NCBI GenBank assembly: GCA_027621155.1
Contig: JAQCCA010000002.1
Location: 1 to 42,156 of the forward strand
DNA length: 42,156 bases
Direction of reading: 5' to 3'
DNA from: Pseudomonadota bacterium
Lineage (GTDB): Bacteria > Pseudomonadota > Gammaproteobacteria > Francisellales > Francisellaceae
The stretch's first letter is position 1, and each line of letters starts with the position of its first letter. A model generated the notes under the pieces. The model did not search any database, was not told where the DNA came from, and saw only the letters and a list, made by a program, of their open reading frames with translations. Shown one piece after another: positions 4,068 to 30,349 of this stretch. The position numbers were made by a program, and so were the translations under genes.

Positions 4068-4871
4068 TTATGCATTAACATTAGTGCTTTCAAAGATCTT
4101 ATCAGCAGAAGCTGCCACAAATCCTTGATAAAGCTTACCTGTGTGATCTGGGTAGCGTTTAGCAAATTCATAATAGCAGCATGGAATTTCCTTTTCGCCT
4201 TCAGTAAACTCAACCTTAATCATGCCTGATTTAGTACTTGATTGTTCAAGCAAATCGCGAGGTGTACCCTTGACTTCACCGCCTGAGCTATTTAAATCAA
4301 AGCCTTGACCTTTAAGGAAAGTATTGACTTCATGGACTTCATCAAACTGATCTAACGCATTGATGAAAACGGTAAAGTGATTCGCTCTAAACCCAAAGAC
4401 ATAGAACCATGCTGCATATTCAGATTCAGCTAATAGTTTTTGGTAAACTTCATGACTTGGTTTGCCCCAAGAATTGCCAGATAGTAATAACTTTTGAGGG
4501 TGATCAAGCAAAGCTTGAGGGATTTTGTCAATGCACTCTTTAATGGTTTGTTGTGCGAAAGGACTTAACTGTTCAAGTAATAACTGGCTGATAAAAATTT
4601 TAGGCTGTGATGAGTCGCTATACTCATAATGCTTAGCATAAAGTTTCTTGGCTTCAAAATGATAATCACCATTTTCAAAATAGCCTTCAGCAATAAAAGG
4701 TTTAGCTAATACATCAAGATTAATACGTGGATCATTAATCGTTCGTAGTGCAATATGGTCATTAATCACTTGTGCATTATGATCACAAAAAAGATCATAA
4801 ATTTTCTGCACATGTGGGTTTGTGTCAACGTATTGTTGCCATAAGTCGTCTAAAATGATGATATGTGACAT
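4068..4871 (-). CDS. DUF1338/HglS-type 2-oxoadipate dioxygenase/decarboxylase (2-hydroxyglutarate synthase)
   Basis: This family is an iron-dependent enzyme that turns 2-oxoadipate into 2-hydroxyglutarate with loss of CO2 (characterised as HglS in Pseudomonas putida lysine catabolism and in plant homologues). Candidate metal ligands are His39 in NDHIALRTI, His165 in ANHFTVFIN and Glu235 in CYYEFAKRY. At 267 aa it is the short form; the Pseudomonas enzyme is much longer. I prefer the ATG at 4871 over the listed start at 4916. It is preceded by TAGGAGAATAACC, an ideal ribosome site, and the longer form would overlap the upstream aldehyde dehydrogenase gene. Third gene of the lysine operon. Confidence 0.87.
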   Translation of the reverse strand: MSHIIILDDLWQQYVDTNPHVQKIYDLFCDHNAQVINDHIALRTINDPRINLDVLAKPFIAEGYFENGDYHFEAKKLYAKHYEYSDSSQPKIFISQLLLEQLSPFAQQTIKECIDKIPQALLDHPQKLLLSGNSWGKPSHEVYQKLLAESEYAAWFYVFGFRANHFTVFINALDQFDEVHEVNTFLKGQGFDLNSSGGEVKGTPRDLLEQSSTKSGMIKVEFTEGEKEIPCCYYEFAKRYPDHTGKLYQGFVAASADKIFESTNVNA

Positions 4872-4881
4872 GGTTATTCTC

Positions 4882-6381
4882 CTACTCTGTAAGTGAAAAT
4901 TTGATTCCTTGTGCAAGAGGTAATTCCTTGCTCCAATTCATGGTAACGGTTTGGCGACGCATATAGGCTTTCCATGCGTCAGATCCAGCTTCACGCCCGC
5001 CACCGGTGTGTTTCTCGCCACCAAAAGCGCCACCAATTTCAGCGCCTGATGTACCAATGTTGACATTGGCAATACCGCAATCACTGCCGGCATATGATAA
5101 AAATTGTTCAGAATGATCAATACGTTGCGTGAAAATGGCAGATGATAAGCCGTGATCGACTTGGTTATTGATTTTAATTGCATGCTCAATATCATCAAAT
5201 GGCATCACAAATAAAATAGGGCAGAAGTTCTCTTGATTAACAATATCCCAGTCAGGTTTAGCTTCGATGATTGTCGGCTCGACATAGTTGCCTGGCTTGT
5301 TAATCACATTGCCACCAAAAAGGATATTGCCACCTAACTCTTTAGCGCGAGCAACTGCTTTTTGATAAATCCCAACAAGGTTTTGATCAATCAAAGGTCC
5401 CATAAGGTTGTTAGTATCTAGTGGATCACCAACAGTGATTTGCTTGTAGGCATTTTGTAGGCGTTTGATAACATCTTTATAGATGTTCTGGTGTACAAGC
5501 AAACGACGTAATGATGTACAGCGTTGTCCCGCTGTGCCAACTGCACCAAAGACAACGGCAGGAATCGCTAATTTTAAATCAGCAGATTCATCAATGATTG
5601 CGGCATTATTACCACCTAATTCAAGCAGTGATTTACCAAAGCGCTCAGCAACACGTGCACCAACCTCGCGTCCCACGGCAGTGGAGCCGGTGAATGACAT
5701 CAGTGCTATGCGCTGATCAGCAACCAGTGCTTTAGAAACATCAACACTTTTTGAAACCACGGATGTGAAGACATTCGGGAAGTTATGTGCTTTGGTCACG
5801 CGATCACAAATCTCTTGAATTGCTAAGGCACAAAGTGGTGTTTTAGGTGAGGGATTCCAAACAACTGTATTACCACAAATTGCCGCAATAAAAGCATTCC
5901 ATGACCAAACAGCGACAGGGAAGTTATACGCTGAGATCACACCGACAACACCAAGCGGGTGCCATTGTTCAAACATGCGATGATCTGGACGCTCTGAATG
6001 CATTGATTTGCCATACAGCATACGCGCCTGACCAACGGCAAAATCAGCCATATCAATCATCTCTTGTACTTCGCCATCACCTTCTTGTTTGGATTTACCC
6101 ATTTCAAGGGATACAAGACTGCCTAATTGGTCTTTATGCTTTCTTAACTCTTCACCAATTAAACGCACGAGTTCAGCGCGTTGTGGCGCTGGGATCTTGC
6201 GCCATTTTGTAAACGCATTTTGCGCTTCAGTAATGGTTTGCTGTAAATGTGACACACCTAAGCTTGGCACCTTAGCCAATAACTCATTATTGGCAGGGTT
6301 GAAGCTTTCAATATATTCACCAGTGTTGTGCTTGGCAGCGTATTGGCTTAGTTGTTCTGTGTAGCTTGTCATGCAAGTCAT
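4882..6381 (-). CDS. L-aminoadipate-semialdehyde dehydrogenase (ALDH7/antiquitin type)
   Basis: An NAD-dependent aldehyde dehydrogenase of 499 aa. The ALDH7A1-like segment [13 protein letters not shown] holds catalytic Cys288, the general-base glutamate is Glu254 in [10 protein letters not shown], the oxyanion asparagine is in [10 protein letters not shown] (about 153), and the cofactor loop is [11 protein letters not shown] (about 230-240). The GQRCT-x-RR context and LGGNN sequence are characteristic of antiquitin, which oxidises 2-aminoadipate 6-semialdehyde to 2-aminoadipate. Second gene of the operon: 32 bp after the dehydrogenase and 10 bp before the DUF1338 gene. Two ATGs lie close together at the 5' end, with GGAGA upstream. 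Confidence 0.92.
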
Positions 6382-9981: not shown

Positions 9982-10095
9982 AACACCCCGTCAGTCTGCG
10001 ACTGCCACCCCTCTTGCAAAGAGGGGAATTGGGCAATGGTGATTTTATATTCCCCTCTTAGAAAGAGGGGTGCCGAACTTGTGAGGCGGGGTGTT
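9982..10095. repeat. 114-bp palindromic MITE/REP-like element, copy A
   Basis: Bounded by AACACCCCG and its inverse CGGGGTGTT, and containing several stems: CAGTC/GACTG, CCCCTCTT/AAGAGGGG twice, and GCC/GGC. The reverse complement of copy B (14383-14496) matches it over the full 114 bp with about 10 differences by eye and no gaps. Several differences are paired so that stems are kept. No coding capacity was seen. It separates comEC from the acyltransferase gene. Confidence 0.9.
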
Positions 10096-10158
10096 AAAAT
10101 AGAAAAAATGTGGGGCTCCAGCTAAAACAAAACTAAAAGAAAAAACTGGAGAGCAGGT

Positions 10159-14324: not shown

Positions 14325-14382
14325 ATTGTATATTTCCTGTCTTATGTTCTTACTTATTGGAGTTACGAGCTTTTGCTATTTC

Positions 14383-14496
14383 AACACCCCGCCTCGCAAG
14401 CTCGGCACCCCTCTTGCGAAGAGAGGAATATAAAATTACCATTGCCTAATTCCCCTCTTTGCAAGAGGGGTGGCAGCCGTAGGCTGACGGGGTGTT
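14383..14496. repeat. 114-bp palindromic MITE/REP-like element, copy B (inverted relative to copy A)
   Basis: It has the same 9-bp ends (AACACCCCG...CGGGGTGTT) and the same length as copy A, in reverse orientation. Stem changes between copies are compensatory: CAGCC/GGCTG here, CAGTC/GACTG in copy A. It lies between the ligase gene and the DUF2062 gene. The segment TTGGAGTTACG occurs near both copies outside the element. Confidence 0.9.
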
Positions 14497-17952: not shown

Positions 17953-18048
17953 TTAAAGTCCAAAAACACCGTAAAAACTACTGCTGCATTAGGTTAAATC
18001 CAGTAAACTGTGCATGAATAAATTATTTTGATTTTGGTAGTGGCTGTT

Positions 18049-19527
18049 ATGGTGAAAGCAGAGATTTTAATGAATATAGCAGCACACGAAAAGCGGGTTG
18101 CCGTGATCGAAAACGGTGTGTTGCAGGAAGTGCATTTTGAGCGTGAGAATCAGCGCGGTATTGTTGGCAATATTTATAAAGGGAAAATCACGCGGGTTTT
18201 ACCTGGAATGCAGGCTGCGTTTGTTGATATAGGGCTTGAGCGCTCTGGCTTTTTACATGTTTCTGATGTTATGCCGATTGCTTCAGATGAAAGTGCTGGC
18301 ATTGACTTAAACAGCAAAGAAGCCGATGTGCGTCATTGGCTGAGAGAAGGGCAAAGCATCTTGGTGCAAGTGCTTAAAGACCCATTAGGTAGCAAAGGTG
18401 CGCGTTTAAGTGCGCATTTGTCATTAGCGTCGCGCTATTTAGTGCATATGCCAGATTTAGATCATATCGGTATTTCTTTGCGCATTGAATCCGAGGAAGA
18501 GCGTGAGCGTTTGCAGCAAGTAATGAAAGAGGCGATTGGATCGGATTATCCACGCGGATTTATCATTCGCACGGTTGCTGAGGGCTTATCTTCTGAGGAG
18601 CTTAGAAAAGATATTAATTTCTTGCAGAATCTATGGCAGGACGTGCTTGATTCAGCAAGTACGGTGACGAAGCCTGGTGTTGTCTATCAGGATTTGAATC
18701 TTGTTATGCGTGCACTTAGAGACTTTGCTAACGACAAGGTTGAACGTATTCGCATTGATAATATCGATATGTATAGTGAGCTATGCCGCTTTAGTGATAA
18801 ATTTGTGCCTGGAGTACGTGAGAAACTGGAGTTATATAGCTCAAATACACCAATCTTTGATATGTATGGTGTTGAAGAAGAGTTATCACGTGCGCTTGAG
18901 CGTAAAGTGCCATTAAAATCTGGTGGGCATATTGTTATTGATCAAACTGAAGCTATGACAACGATTGATGTCAATACCGGTGGTTATGTCGGTATGGTCA
19001 ATCTTGAAGAGACAATTTTTAAAACTAATTTAGAGGCCGTACGCGTTTTAACAAGGCAGTTGAGACTAAGAAATCTTGGAGGTATCATTATTGTCGATTT
19101 TATTGATATGTCTGAAGAAGAGCATAAAGCTCAAGTTTTAGAGGCACTTGAAAAGGCGTTAGAGCTTGACTATGCACGTACGACATTTTCACCATTATCA
19201 GAGCTTGGCTTGGTTGAGATGACGCGTAAGCGCACGCAGGAAAGCCTCGCACAGTTTTTATGCGAGCCTTGCCCGATGTGCCAAGGAAAAGGTCGCATTA
19301 AATCAGTACAAAGCATTTGTTATGAGATTTTTCGCGAGATTAATCGTGAGGCAAATGCTTACCAAAGCAATGGCTTTTTGATTGTTGCTGCAAACTCGGT
19401 AATTGATGCCTTGCAAAATGATGAATCGTTTGGTCTAGGTGAGTTAGAAATTATTATTGGTAAACCCATTAAACTTCAGCCAGAATTAAGCTATGCTCAA
19501 GAAATGTATGATATCGTGCTAATGTAA
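18049..19527 (+). CDS. rng: Ribonuclease G
   Basis: An endoribonuclease that matures the 5' end of 16S rRNA and cleaves A/U-rich single strands. It has an S1 domain at the N-terminus (GIVGNIYKGKITRVLPGMQAA type sequence), the catalytic DNase I-like domain with the Mg2+ aspartates in MTTIDVNTGG and IIVDFIDM, and the Zn-link CPMC near the end. There is no long C-terminal tail, which separates it from RNase E. The listed start (18028) is a TTG-type start; E. coli alignment favours the ATG at 18049 (MVKAEILMN). It is followed by yhdP as in E. coli. Its intact state matters because rne in this window is interrupted. Confidence 0.94.
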   Translation: MVKAEILMNIAAHEKRVAVIENGVLQEVHFERENQRGIVGNIYKGKITRVLPGMQAAFVDIGLERSGFLHVSDVMPIASDESAGIDLNSKEADVRHWLREGQSILVQVLKDPLGSKGARLSAHLSLASRYLVHMPDLDHIGISLRIESEEERERLQQVMKEAIGSDYPRGFIIRTVAEGLSSEELRKDINFLQNLWQDVLDSASTVTKPGVVYQDLNLVMRALRDFANDKVERIRIDNIDMYSELCRFSDKFVPGVREKLELYSSNTPIFDMYGVEEELSRALERKVPLKSGGHIVIDQTEAMTTIDVNTGGYVGMVNLEETIFKTNLEAVRVLTRQLRLRNLGGIIIVDFIDMSEEEHKAQVLEALEKALELDYARTTFSPLSELGLVEMTRKRTQESLAQFLCEPCPMCQGKGRIKSVQSICYEIFREINREANAYQSNGFLIVAANSVIDALQNDESFGLGELEIIIGKPIKLQPELSYAQEMYDIVLM

Positions 19528-23473: not shown

Positions 23474-24204
23474 TCGCCCCATAAAGCCTGTAATATAGCG
23501 ATAATTGCCAAGGGTGCAGTTTCTGTGCGTAGTATTCTTTTACCAAGACGTATGCTGTGACAGCCTTTATTTAATGCAAGCGATTCCTCATTATCACTAA
23601 AACCACCCTCAGGACCGATATAAATAGCAAAACGTTTAGCATTTGATTGCTGTTGATAGCGATGGGTAATTGTCTCATTGCTATGAGGAGATAGGAATAA
23701 CTTAATATCCGCATCGATTGTTAATGCATCAACTAAAGCTTGAGGCGTGTTAACTGTAGGCACAAATACACGAGCGGATTGCTCACTGGCACTTATGGCA
23801 ATTTTTTGCCAATGATCTAGTTTATGCGCTATCCGATCTTGATTAAGCTTGTAATCAACGCGTTCGGTCAGCATTGGCGTAAGTTCATTGACGCCAAGCT
23901 CGGTGGCTTTTTGAATGACTGTTTCTAGCTTGTCGCCCTTAGACAGCGCTTGGAACAGATGGATATGAATGGGTGATTCATTTTGCTTTTCAGTTTTAGA
24001 TAATATCTGAAGTATCGCTTTTTTAGGGTCTGCATGACTGATCTCAGTAAGATATTCATAACCATCAACATTATTAAATAAAATAACTTGATGACCCTGT
24101 TTATGCCTTAATACACGAATAAGGTAATGACTTGTTTCAGCAGAAAGGGTTATCGTCGCGGATTGCGCAGAAATCTCAGGATAAAATACACGAGAAATTC
24201 TCAT
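23467..24204 (-). CDS. rsmE: 16S rRNA (uracil1498-N3)-methyltransferase
   Basis: A SPOUT-fold enzyme methylating U1498 of 16S rRNA with SAM. The N-terminal PUA-like region contains SHYLIRVLRHKQG. The knotted C-terminal half contains KGDKLETVIQKATELGV, IGPEGGFSDNE and LGKRILRTETAPLAIIAIL, the SAM-binding trefoil motifs. At 245 aa it is standard for the family. It overlaps the 3' end of yhdP on the opposite strand and lies 18 bp downstream of the permease gene. Confidence 0.95.
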   Translation of the reverse strand: MRISRVFYPEISAQSATITLSAETSHYLIRVLRHKQGHQVILFNNVDGYEYLTEISHADPKKAILQILSKTEKQNESPIHIHLFQALSKGDKLETVIQKATELGVNELTPMLTERVDYKLNQDRIAHKLDHWQKIAISASEQSARVFVPTVNTPQALVDALTIDADIKLFLSPHSNETITHRYQQQSNAKRFAIYIGPEGGFSDNEESLALNKGCHSIRLGKRILRTETAPLAIIAILQALWGDY

Positions 24205-27625: not shown

Positions 27626-30349
27626 TTAGGCTTTAGTGATATAGCCTTGAGAGTTAACATCAACCGCAGGAGAGTATTCCATGTGCGCCGGTTTGCGCGC
27701 TGATTTGCGAGGGCGCGGTTTTCTCTCTTGTTTGTTGTTATCGTCATGATCACTTGCTTCAACTGTTTCAAGTTCGCGATCATCAGTAGTGCTATTATCA
27801 CTTTGTAGTGTGGTTTCACCAATGATAATTCCAGTCTCTTCAGCTTCTACTGTTGATTCCTGCGCTTCTTTAGCCTGTTTGGCAAGCTCTTTTTGCTTAA
27901 GCTTTTCTTCTTTGGCAATTTGAGCAGTCAGTGCTTGCGTATCCACCACTTCAAAGTTTAAGTATTTAACTTTGCGGGTTTGTGAAGCATGCGTTTCAAC
28001 CTGAACAGCTTGATCACTGGTCAGTGTCGTAACTTCGGCTAAAACTTCTTTAACCATCACTGAAATCTTCTCTTCAGGTGTCGTTGAAATCGTTTTCATA
28101 ATCGCTTTTTCTTTTGCTGCTTTTTGTGCTTCAGGTGAATCCTTCTTCAGTGCAGCAATATCGACCATCTCTTCACTTTGGTGAACTTGTAGGCGTTGAT
28201 TATTGCGGTTATTACCACGGTTTCCCTTGTTACCTCTGTCACGATCGTTTCTATCATTTCTATCGTTTCGATCATTACGATTGTTGCGGTCATTACGATC
28301 ATTCTTATTGCCGCGATCATTGCGATTGTCATTGCTATCGCGTGCGTCAGTAGATTTGTTGTGATGATCGTTACGCTCATCACTTTGTTGCTGATGACGT
28401 GGCTTATTCTCGTGCTGATTTCTATTATTGTTACGATTATCGCGACGATTGTTATCACGGTCATTATTGCGTCCATCACGAGATTGAGACTTATCGCGTT
28501 GATTATTACGCTCACTAGTTTTGTTATCAGCTCTATCTTGCTGACCTTTTTCAGGTTGCGTAGATTTCTGGGATTGTTTTTGATCACGTGCATCACGCTC
28601 AGTGCTGGCTTCTTTATCGCTGAAGAAAAAAGCGCTTAATTTTGCCCAGAAACCCTTGGTTTCAGTCTTGTTATGCTTGGTTTCTTTGCTCAATTCTTTG
28701 TTAACTTGTGGCTTATCTTCAGTTTTTTTGCTGTCACTATTGTTAGATGTGTTAGAAGGCTGATTATAATCAGCAGATTTTAACGCAGGCTGCTTTGATT
28801 TATCTTGTTTTGGTGCTTTATAAAGCTCAACATCTTTTTTATCTTCAATCAAATCATAGCTTGGGCGACTTGCCGTATAAGCATCACCCCAAATGCGTTG
28901 CACGCTGTAATGTGGCGACTGCAAATTAGCGTTAGGGATTAAGGTAACCTTCGTGCTTGTACCTTCTTCAATCTGAGATAACTCATCGCGCTTCTCATTT
29001 AAAAGGAATGTCGCAACATCAATGGGTAATTGTACGCGTAACTCATTGGTTTTTTCACGTACTGCCTCAGCATGGACATTGCGTAAAATAGACAAAGCAA
29101 GTGATGGGATTGAGCGAATAAAGCCGTGTCCTGCGCAGCGTGGGCATGAGTGCATTACTGATTCACCAAGAGATGCTTGTAACCTCTGACGTGAGATTTC
29201 CACTAAGCCAAACTTAGAAATGCGCGTCATTTGAATGCGTGCGCGATCATGGAATAAAGCGTCAACCAATTTTTGCTCAACGGCTTTTTGATTCGGGAAG
29301 AATGCCATATCAATAAAGTCAACAACGATTAAACCACCAAGATCACGTAAACGTAATTGTCGAGCGATTTCCTCAGCAGCTTCCAAATTCGTTGCAAAAG
29401 CGGTCTCTTCGATATTGTCACCTTTGGTTGAGCGTGCTGAGTTAATATCGATTGCAGTTAATGCTTCTGTGGTATCAATCACAATTGAACCACCCGATGG
29501 CAATTGCACTTCACGTTTAAACGCGCTTTCAATTTGCTTTTCAATTTGGAAAGCGTTAAATAATGGCAGATCTTTTTTATAAAGTTGTAAACGCTCAACA
29601 AAGCCAGGACGTAGCATGCTTAATTGGCGCTTAAGATCTTCGTAAGATTCCTCATCATCGATAATGATTTCTTTGATATCTTCTTTTAAGTGATCACGAA
29701 TGGCACGTATAGTAATGTCACTTTCTTTGTGAATCAAAAAAGGCGCTTTGCGCTGATATGAAACACGCTTAATCGCATCCCAAAGTGTTGTCAAAGTGTC
29801 AAGATCCGCTTGAATTTCATCAGCTGAGCGATCAACACCTGCGGTGCGGATAATAACGCCCATATTGGTAGGGATGGTTAACGAATCAAAAAGAGCTTTA
29901 AGTTTTTGACGCTCATCACCTTCGATGCGGCGAGATATTCCACCGGCACTTGGATTATTTGGCATCAATACCATGTAGCAGCCAGCAAGTGTGATGAATG
30001 TTGTTAAAGCCGCACCTTTTGAGCCACGCTCTTCTTTAGCGATTTGCACAATCAACTCTTGACCGACATCAAGCAACTCGTTTAAAGATGTGTCTTGGTC
30101 TTTAGCAGTTTTCTTGAAGTATTCGGGGGAATTCTATGCAAATGGTAAAAAGCCATTCTTATCTTCACCATAATTAACGAAAACAGCATTTAAGCTTGGC
30201 TCAATGCGTGAAATTTTTGCTTTGTAGATATTGGCTTTTTTCTGCTCCCTGTCAATACTCTCGATGTCTAAATCCATCAATTGCACGTTGTCGACGATTG
30301 CAATACGCGTTTCTTCTGCTTGACGCGCATTGATTAACATTTTTTTCAT
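27626..30349 (-). pseudogene. rne: Ribonuclease E, interrupted by an in-frame amber codon at codon 72
   Basis: RNase E is the degradosome endonuclease for mRNA decay and rRNA/tRNA processing. The N-terminal S1 part [20 protein letters not shown] runs to NGFLPFA, then TAG (30136-30134). The same frame then continues NSPEYFKKTAKDQ and into GQELIVQIAKEERGSKGAA and the catalytic domain (LTAIDINSA, LIVVDFIDM, Zn-link CPRC). Length and frame match E. coli RNase E across the stop (FLP-x6-EYF spacing kept), so this is a base substitution, not an indel. The second half has no good ATG start and begins at TTG in the ORF list. The whole would be 907 aa with an Arg/Asn/Asp-rich tail. Possible explanations are a real nonsense mutation, suppression, or a base/assembly error (an EcoRI site GAATTC abuts the stop). 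Confidence 0.85.
28196..28345 (-). repeat. Low-complexity Asn-Asp-Arg repeat region of rne tail
   Basis: Short imperfect tandem units (CGNTCATT/CGATCGTT-like in plus orientation) encode runs of NDR, NNR and NRN triplets in the disordered tail of RNase E. The composition is so skewed that all frames stay open, which produces the false 147- to 149-aa ORFs listed on both strands here. Such basic tails bind RNA and partner proteins in RNase E. Confidence 0.8.

Follow-up and report, generated by a model that had tools for sequence, protein, structure and literature searches.

The rne gene and its internal stop codon

The window, which is the whole analysed stretch of 42,156 nucleotides, corresponds to contig C5 of a 2.35-Mb draft assembly that consists of 286 contigs and is 90.5% complete. 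The records closest to the window came from species of Cysteiniphilum, a marine bacterium. The features discussed below were located as follows:

18028..19527, plus strand: rng (RNase G), the intact paralogue, recognized by the RNase E/G family model
27626..30349, minus strand: reading frame of rne (RNase E), made up of 907 codons, among them a single internal TAG, and closed by the terminal stop
27626..30076, minus strand: downstream open frame of 816 amino acids from the TTG at codon 92, with RNase_E_G and thioredoxin-like domains and no S1
29990..30244, minus strand: part of rne that encodes the S1 domain (about residues 36-120), interrupted by the stop
30131..30139, minus strand: private nine-base patch at rne codons 71-73, A-stop-N versus K-E-I in relatives
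30134..30136, minus strand: in-frame TAG at codon 72 of rne, seen in the translation

Translation of the minus strand from 27626 to 30349 revealed a full RNase E, which ran through NGFLPFA-stop-NSPEYFKK to the C-terminal NSQGYITKA-stop. The TAG at codon 72 was the sole internal stop of the frame, and the terminal stop was reached without any change of frame. The translation thus confirmed the in-frame amber codon at 30134-30136 and the unbroken frame behind it, both of which had been described in an earlier note on this DNA. The EcoRI site reported there at the stop was also present, with GAATTC overlapping the TAG and running on 3' of it. The RNase E/G family model matched the gene over its full length, across the TAG. 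The S1, RNase_E_G catalytic and thioredoxin-like small domains followed each other in order, with the S1 domain cut by the stop, and the C. litorale orthologue contained the same three domains in the same order. With a TAG at codon 72, the window rne does not form the one continuous open frame and polypeptide of an RNase E. In the whole assembly, the family model matched two genes, rne with its one internal TAG and an unbroken RNase G (match at 18091-19335), and no second intact rne copy was found with this model. The intact rng in the same window bore out the suggestion that RNase G was available.

The rne frame had no internal stop in any of the relatives (21/21), and codons 71-73 encoded K-E-I, K-E-V or K-D-I in all 30 RNase E loci compared, in which some genomes were entered twice and 21 relatives were represented. 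A sense codon in relatives had been named beforehand as the result that would speak against the stop, and it was found in 21 of 21. Conservation of the stop, which is expected of programmed recoding, was not observed, as 0/21 relatives carried TAG. The RNA around the stop folded hardly better than shuffled sequences (z -0.26 to -0.98) and gave no Rfam match, so that no programmed recoding structure was found after the stop. Both release factors, RF1 with the PET motif and RF2 with the SPF motif, were found in the genome; RF1 was intact, and a terminal TAG was shared by 24 homologous genes of this genome and strain JM-1. The presence of RF1 and the lack of any avoidance of terminal TAG ruled out a reassignment of this codon, in agreement with the earlier reading of TAG as a real stop in this genome.

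The nine-base patch and its genomic setting

A comparison of codons 71-73 with C. litorale showed that six of the nine bases were changed, and five of nine were changed relative to strain JM-1. A single-base nonsense mutation, by which the stop had originally been explained, was ruled out by these differences from the closest relative, which turned the conserved K-E-I into A-stop-N. The patch was length-neutral, private to one assembly and located directly 3' of the GFLP motif of the S1 domain. Private sites, defined as positions at which the window alone differed from at least three agreeing relatives, accounted for 381 of 22,671 sites (1.7%). At this rate, about 4e-5 occurrences of six private differences in nine bases were expected across the region compared, which pointed to a single complex event, or a single complex error, and not to point drift. 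Five private differences within 12 bases were found at only two places in the window, the rne patch and 24059. The second dense cluster (24059-24070) was located inside an open coding frame. In a looser comparison of two genomes, dense clusters of differences from JM-1 were also seen elsewhere in the genome, mostly at less conserved positions. Since such clusters occur in similar coding DNA between these species, a complex mutation is plausible, and the patch appeared unusual by its location more than by an absence of clusters elsewhere.

A GGGGG run was found beside the patch and a 10-bp imperfect hairpin adjoined it; the two could promote slippage of the polymerase in the cell or sequencing errors. 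A genome search with 15 bases and one mismatch allowed gave no other copy of the patch, and no local template was found. The longest exact match in the same genome was 12 bases in another gene, valS by its motifs, with about 0.3 matches expected by chance, so that a local or genomic template was rejected as the source of the patch. Outside the patch, the window rne contained eight private amino-acid changes and 27 synonymous ones, compared with 5/25 and 5/30 in two intact sister species. These counts gave no clear sign of decay, and since the remainder of the gene changed much as in the intact sisters, any break would be very recent. No excess of private changes was seen in RNase G, and accelerated evolution of this paralogue was rejected.

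The quality of the assembly was assessed by comparing 452 kb of this genome with 1.34 Mb of strain JM-1. The results showed that 155 of the 158 comparable genes were unbroken, and the three flagged genes were rne, a gltS-like transporter and one start-site effect; a generally error-ridden assembly was not seen in these 158 genes. The gltS-like gene, a sodium/glutamate symporter (L085, C3:2901-4124), contained an in-frame TAG that arose by one base change and was absent from the closest other Cysteiniphilum copies. Additionally, an MFS transporter pseudogene (L227, C261 at about 4600-5700) carried a TAG and, compared with JM-1, lacked five bases, and the stops in other MFS matches were TAA or TGA. 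Broken genes were thus few and, apart from rne, located in transporters. Two copies of a repeat of about 126 bases, 90% alike and in opposite orientation, were found in the window at 9982-10107 and 14371-14496. In C. litorale, C. marinum and a MAG, a further copy was found a short way downstream of rne, a place where the window had none. Judged by its copies, the repeat is a small interspersed element of the genus.

Origin of the internal stop

The best single explanation of the patch is a consensus or assembly defect, and we infer that a technical origin is rather likely. The gene would be an ordinary Cysteiniphilum rne, in which a scrambled, length-neutral patch over codons 71-73 happens to create a TAG. 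Local low coverage or a mis-joined read beside the G run and the imperfect hairpin may have produced the patch, and the living cells would make normal RNase E. This explanation is favoured because the patch is private and contradicted by all relatives, because it breaks an enzyme that E. coli requires and that overproduced RNase G replaces there only poorly (PMC5436854), and because the gene looks maintained elsewhere. Counted in its support were the open rne in every relative, the conservation of the residues that the patch replaced and the constraint on the rest of the gene, together with the lack of another rne copy, the fragmented and incomplete draft, its incomplete tRNA set and the GGGGG run with its hairpin. 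On the other side, six substitutions or several balancing indels within nine bases are not typical of base-call errors, and the sampled remainder of the assembly was clean. Of the options raised in the earlier note, which were loss, suppression or reinitiation, and artefact, the artefact emerged as the most likely, and suppression and reinitiation were left unsupported.

It is possible, with less weight than the technical defect, that a real and recent complex mutation produced an rne allele with little or no function in the strain or in part of its population. A templated switch, a microhomology-driven short replacement or a multi-nucleotide substitution would be the route, and RNase G and other nucleases would share the load. 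One complex event would give just such a unique, multi-base, length-neutral patch. RNase G was intact in the same window, the assembly contained other broken genes (the private TAG of the gltS-like gene and the TAG with a 5-base deletion of the MFS gene), and a 12-base match to the patch existed in the valS-like gene, although at the level expected by chance. However, RNase G showed no excess of private changes, no clear relaxation was seen in rne beyond the stop, and the search for a local template found none. E. coli cannot do without RNase E, and its rne mutants are rescued by RNase G poorly and only under overproduction (PMC5436854).

Production of the enzyme in spite of the stop seems far less probable. 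An amber suppressor tRNA that reads the TAG and yields full-length RNase E would fit the observation that the three closely examined internal stops (rne, the gltS-like gene and one MFS gene) were all TAG. No tRNA with a CUA anticodon was found among the tRNAs identified, and the Leu-CAA and Gln-TTG tRNAs were unmutated. Several amino acids had no tRNA in the incomplete assembly, and a CUA tRNA may be among the genes missing from it. Suppression is also opposed by the intact RF1 and the 24 conserved terminal TAGs, and by the TAA or TGA in other MFS matches. Even a read-through product would have A and N in place of the flanking K and I of a conserved S1 motif. Altogether, we regard suppression as very improbable. 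Reinitiation or an internal start, which would give a shortened catalytic RNase E without S1 and a 71-residue N-terminal piece, appears the least probable of all. The 816-amino-acid frame was open from the TTG at 30074-30076 (codon 92), the first candidate start, and kept the catalytic domain. The further in-frame starts were TTG at codon 99, GTG at codon 101 and, as the first ATG, codon 126, but no clear ribosome-binding site preceded any of these four codons. The product would lose the S1 domain, which is part of the RNA-binding channel (PMC9841416), and no relative had such a split gene.

The window therefore most likely holds an assembly defect or, as its alternative, a very recent broken copy, and no novel mode of RNase E production. 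It is unlikely that one complex micro-replacement has just deprived a gammaproteobacterium of full-length RNase E and that the cells live on RNase G or on a two-piece or suppressed enzyme. A stop that was both real and fixed would provide a natural test of the dispensability of RNase E with RNase G present, which has so far mainly been studied in engineered E. coli. On the present evidence it is a caution, in that an essential gene found broken in a draft assembly needs a read check before a biological story is told.

Comparison with known RNase E genes and alleles

The rne genes of Cysteiniphilum litorale DSM 101832 and Cysteiniphilum sp. JM-1 share the gene, start, frame, length and neighbourhood with the window, and their proteins are about 97-98% identical to that of the window. 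Both have K-E-I at codons 71-73 and no stop, whereas the window has A-stop-N. The N-terminal half of E. coli RNase E (2VRT, 2VMK, 2BX2) has the same domains in the same order. F67 of the GFLP motif is counted among the active-site residues of RNase E (PMC9841416). In the E. coli enzyme, GFLP-x-K-E-I covers residue numbers 66-73, and the position of the motif is common to the window frame. The classical alleles rne-1 and rne-3071 affect residues 66 and 68. E. coli RNase E has no stop, whereas in the window the patch removes K-E-I from the S1 domain.

Short-patch illegitimate recombination yields clustered polymorphisms and is known from Acinetobacter baylyi. It would exchange a short stretch and leave the surrounding DNA as it was, but no convincing donor with flanking microhomology was found for the patch in the window. 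A literature search on short-patch recombination, suppressed rne amber alleles and the essentiality of rne in Francisella gave nothing directly usable. Draft genomes also contain ordinary nonsense alleles and pseudogenes, which likewise have one private stop where all relatives have an intact gene. Unlike in these ordinary alleles, the stop in the window lies within a multi-base patch and affects a gene essential to E. coli.
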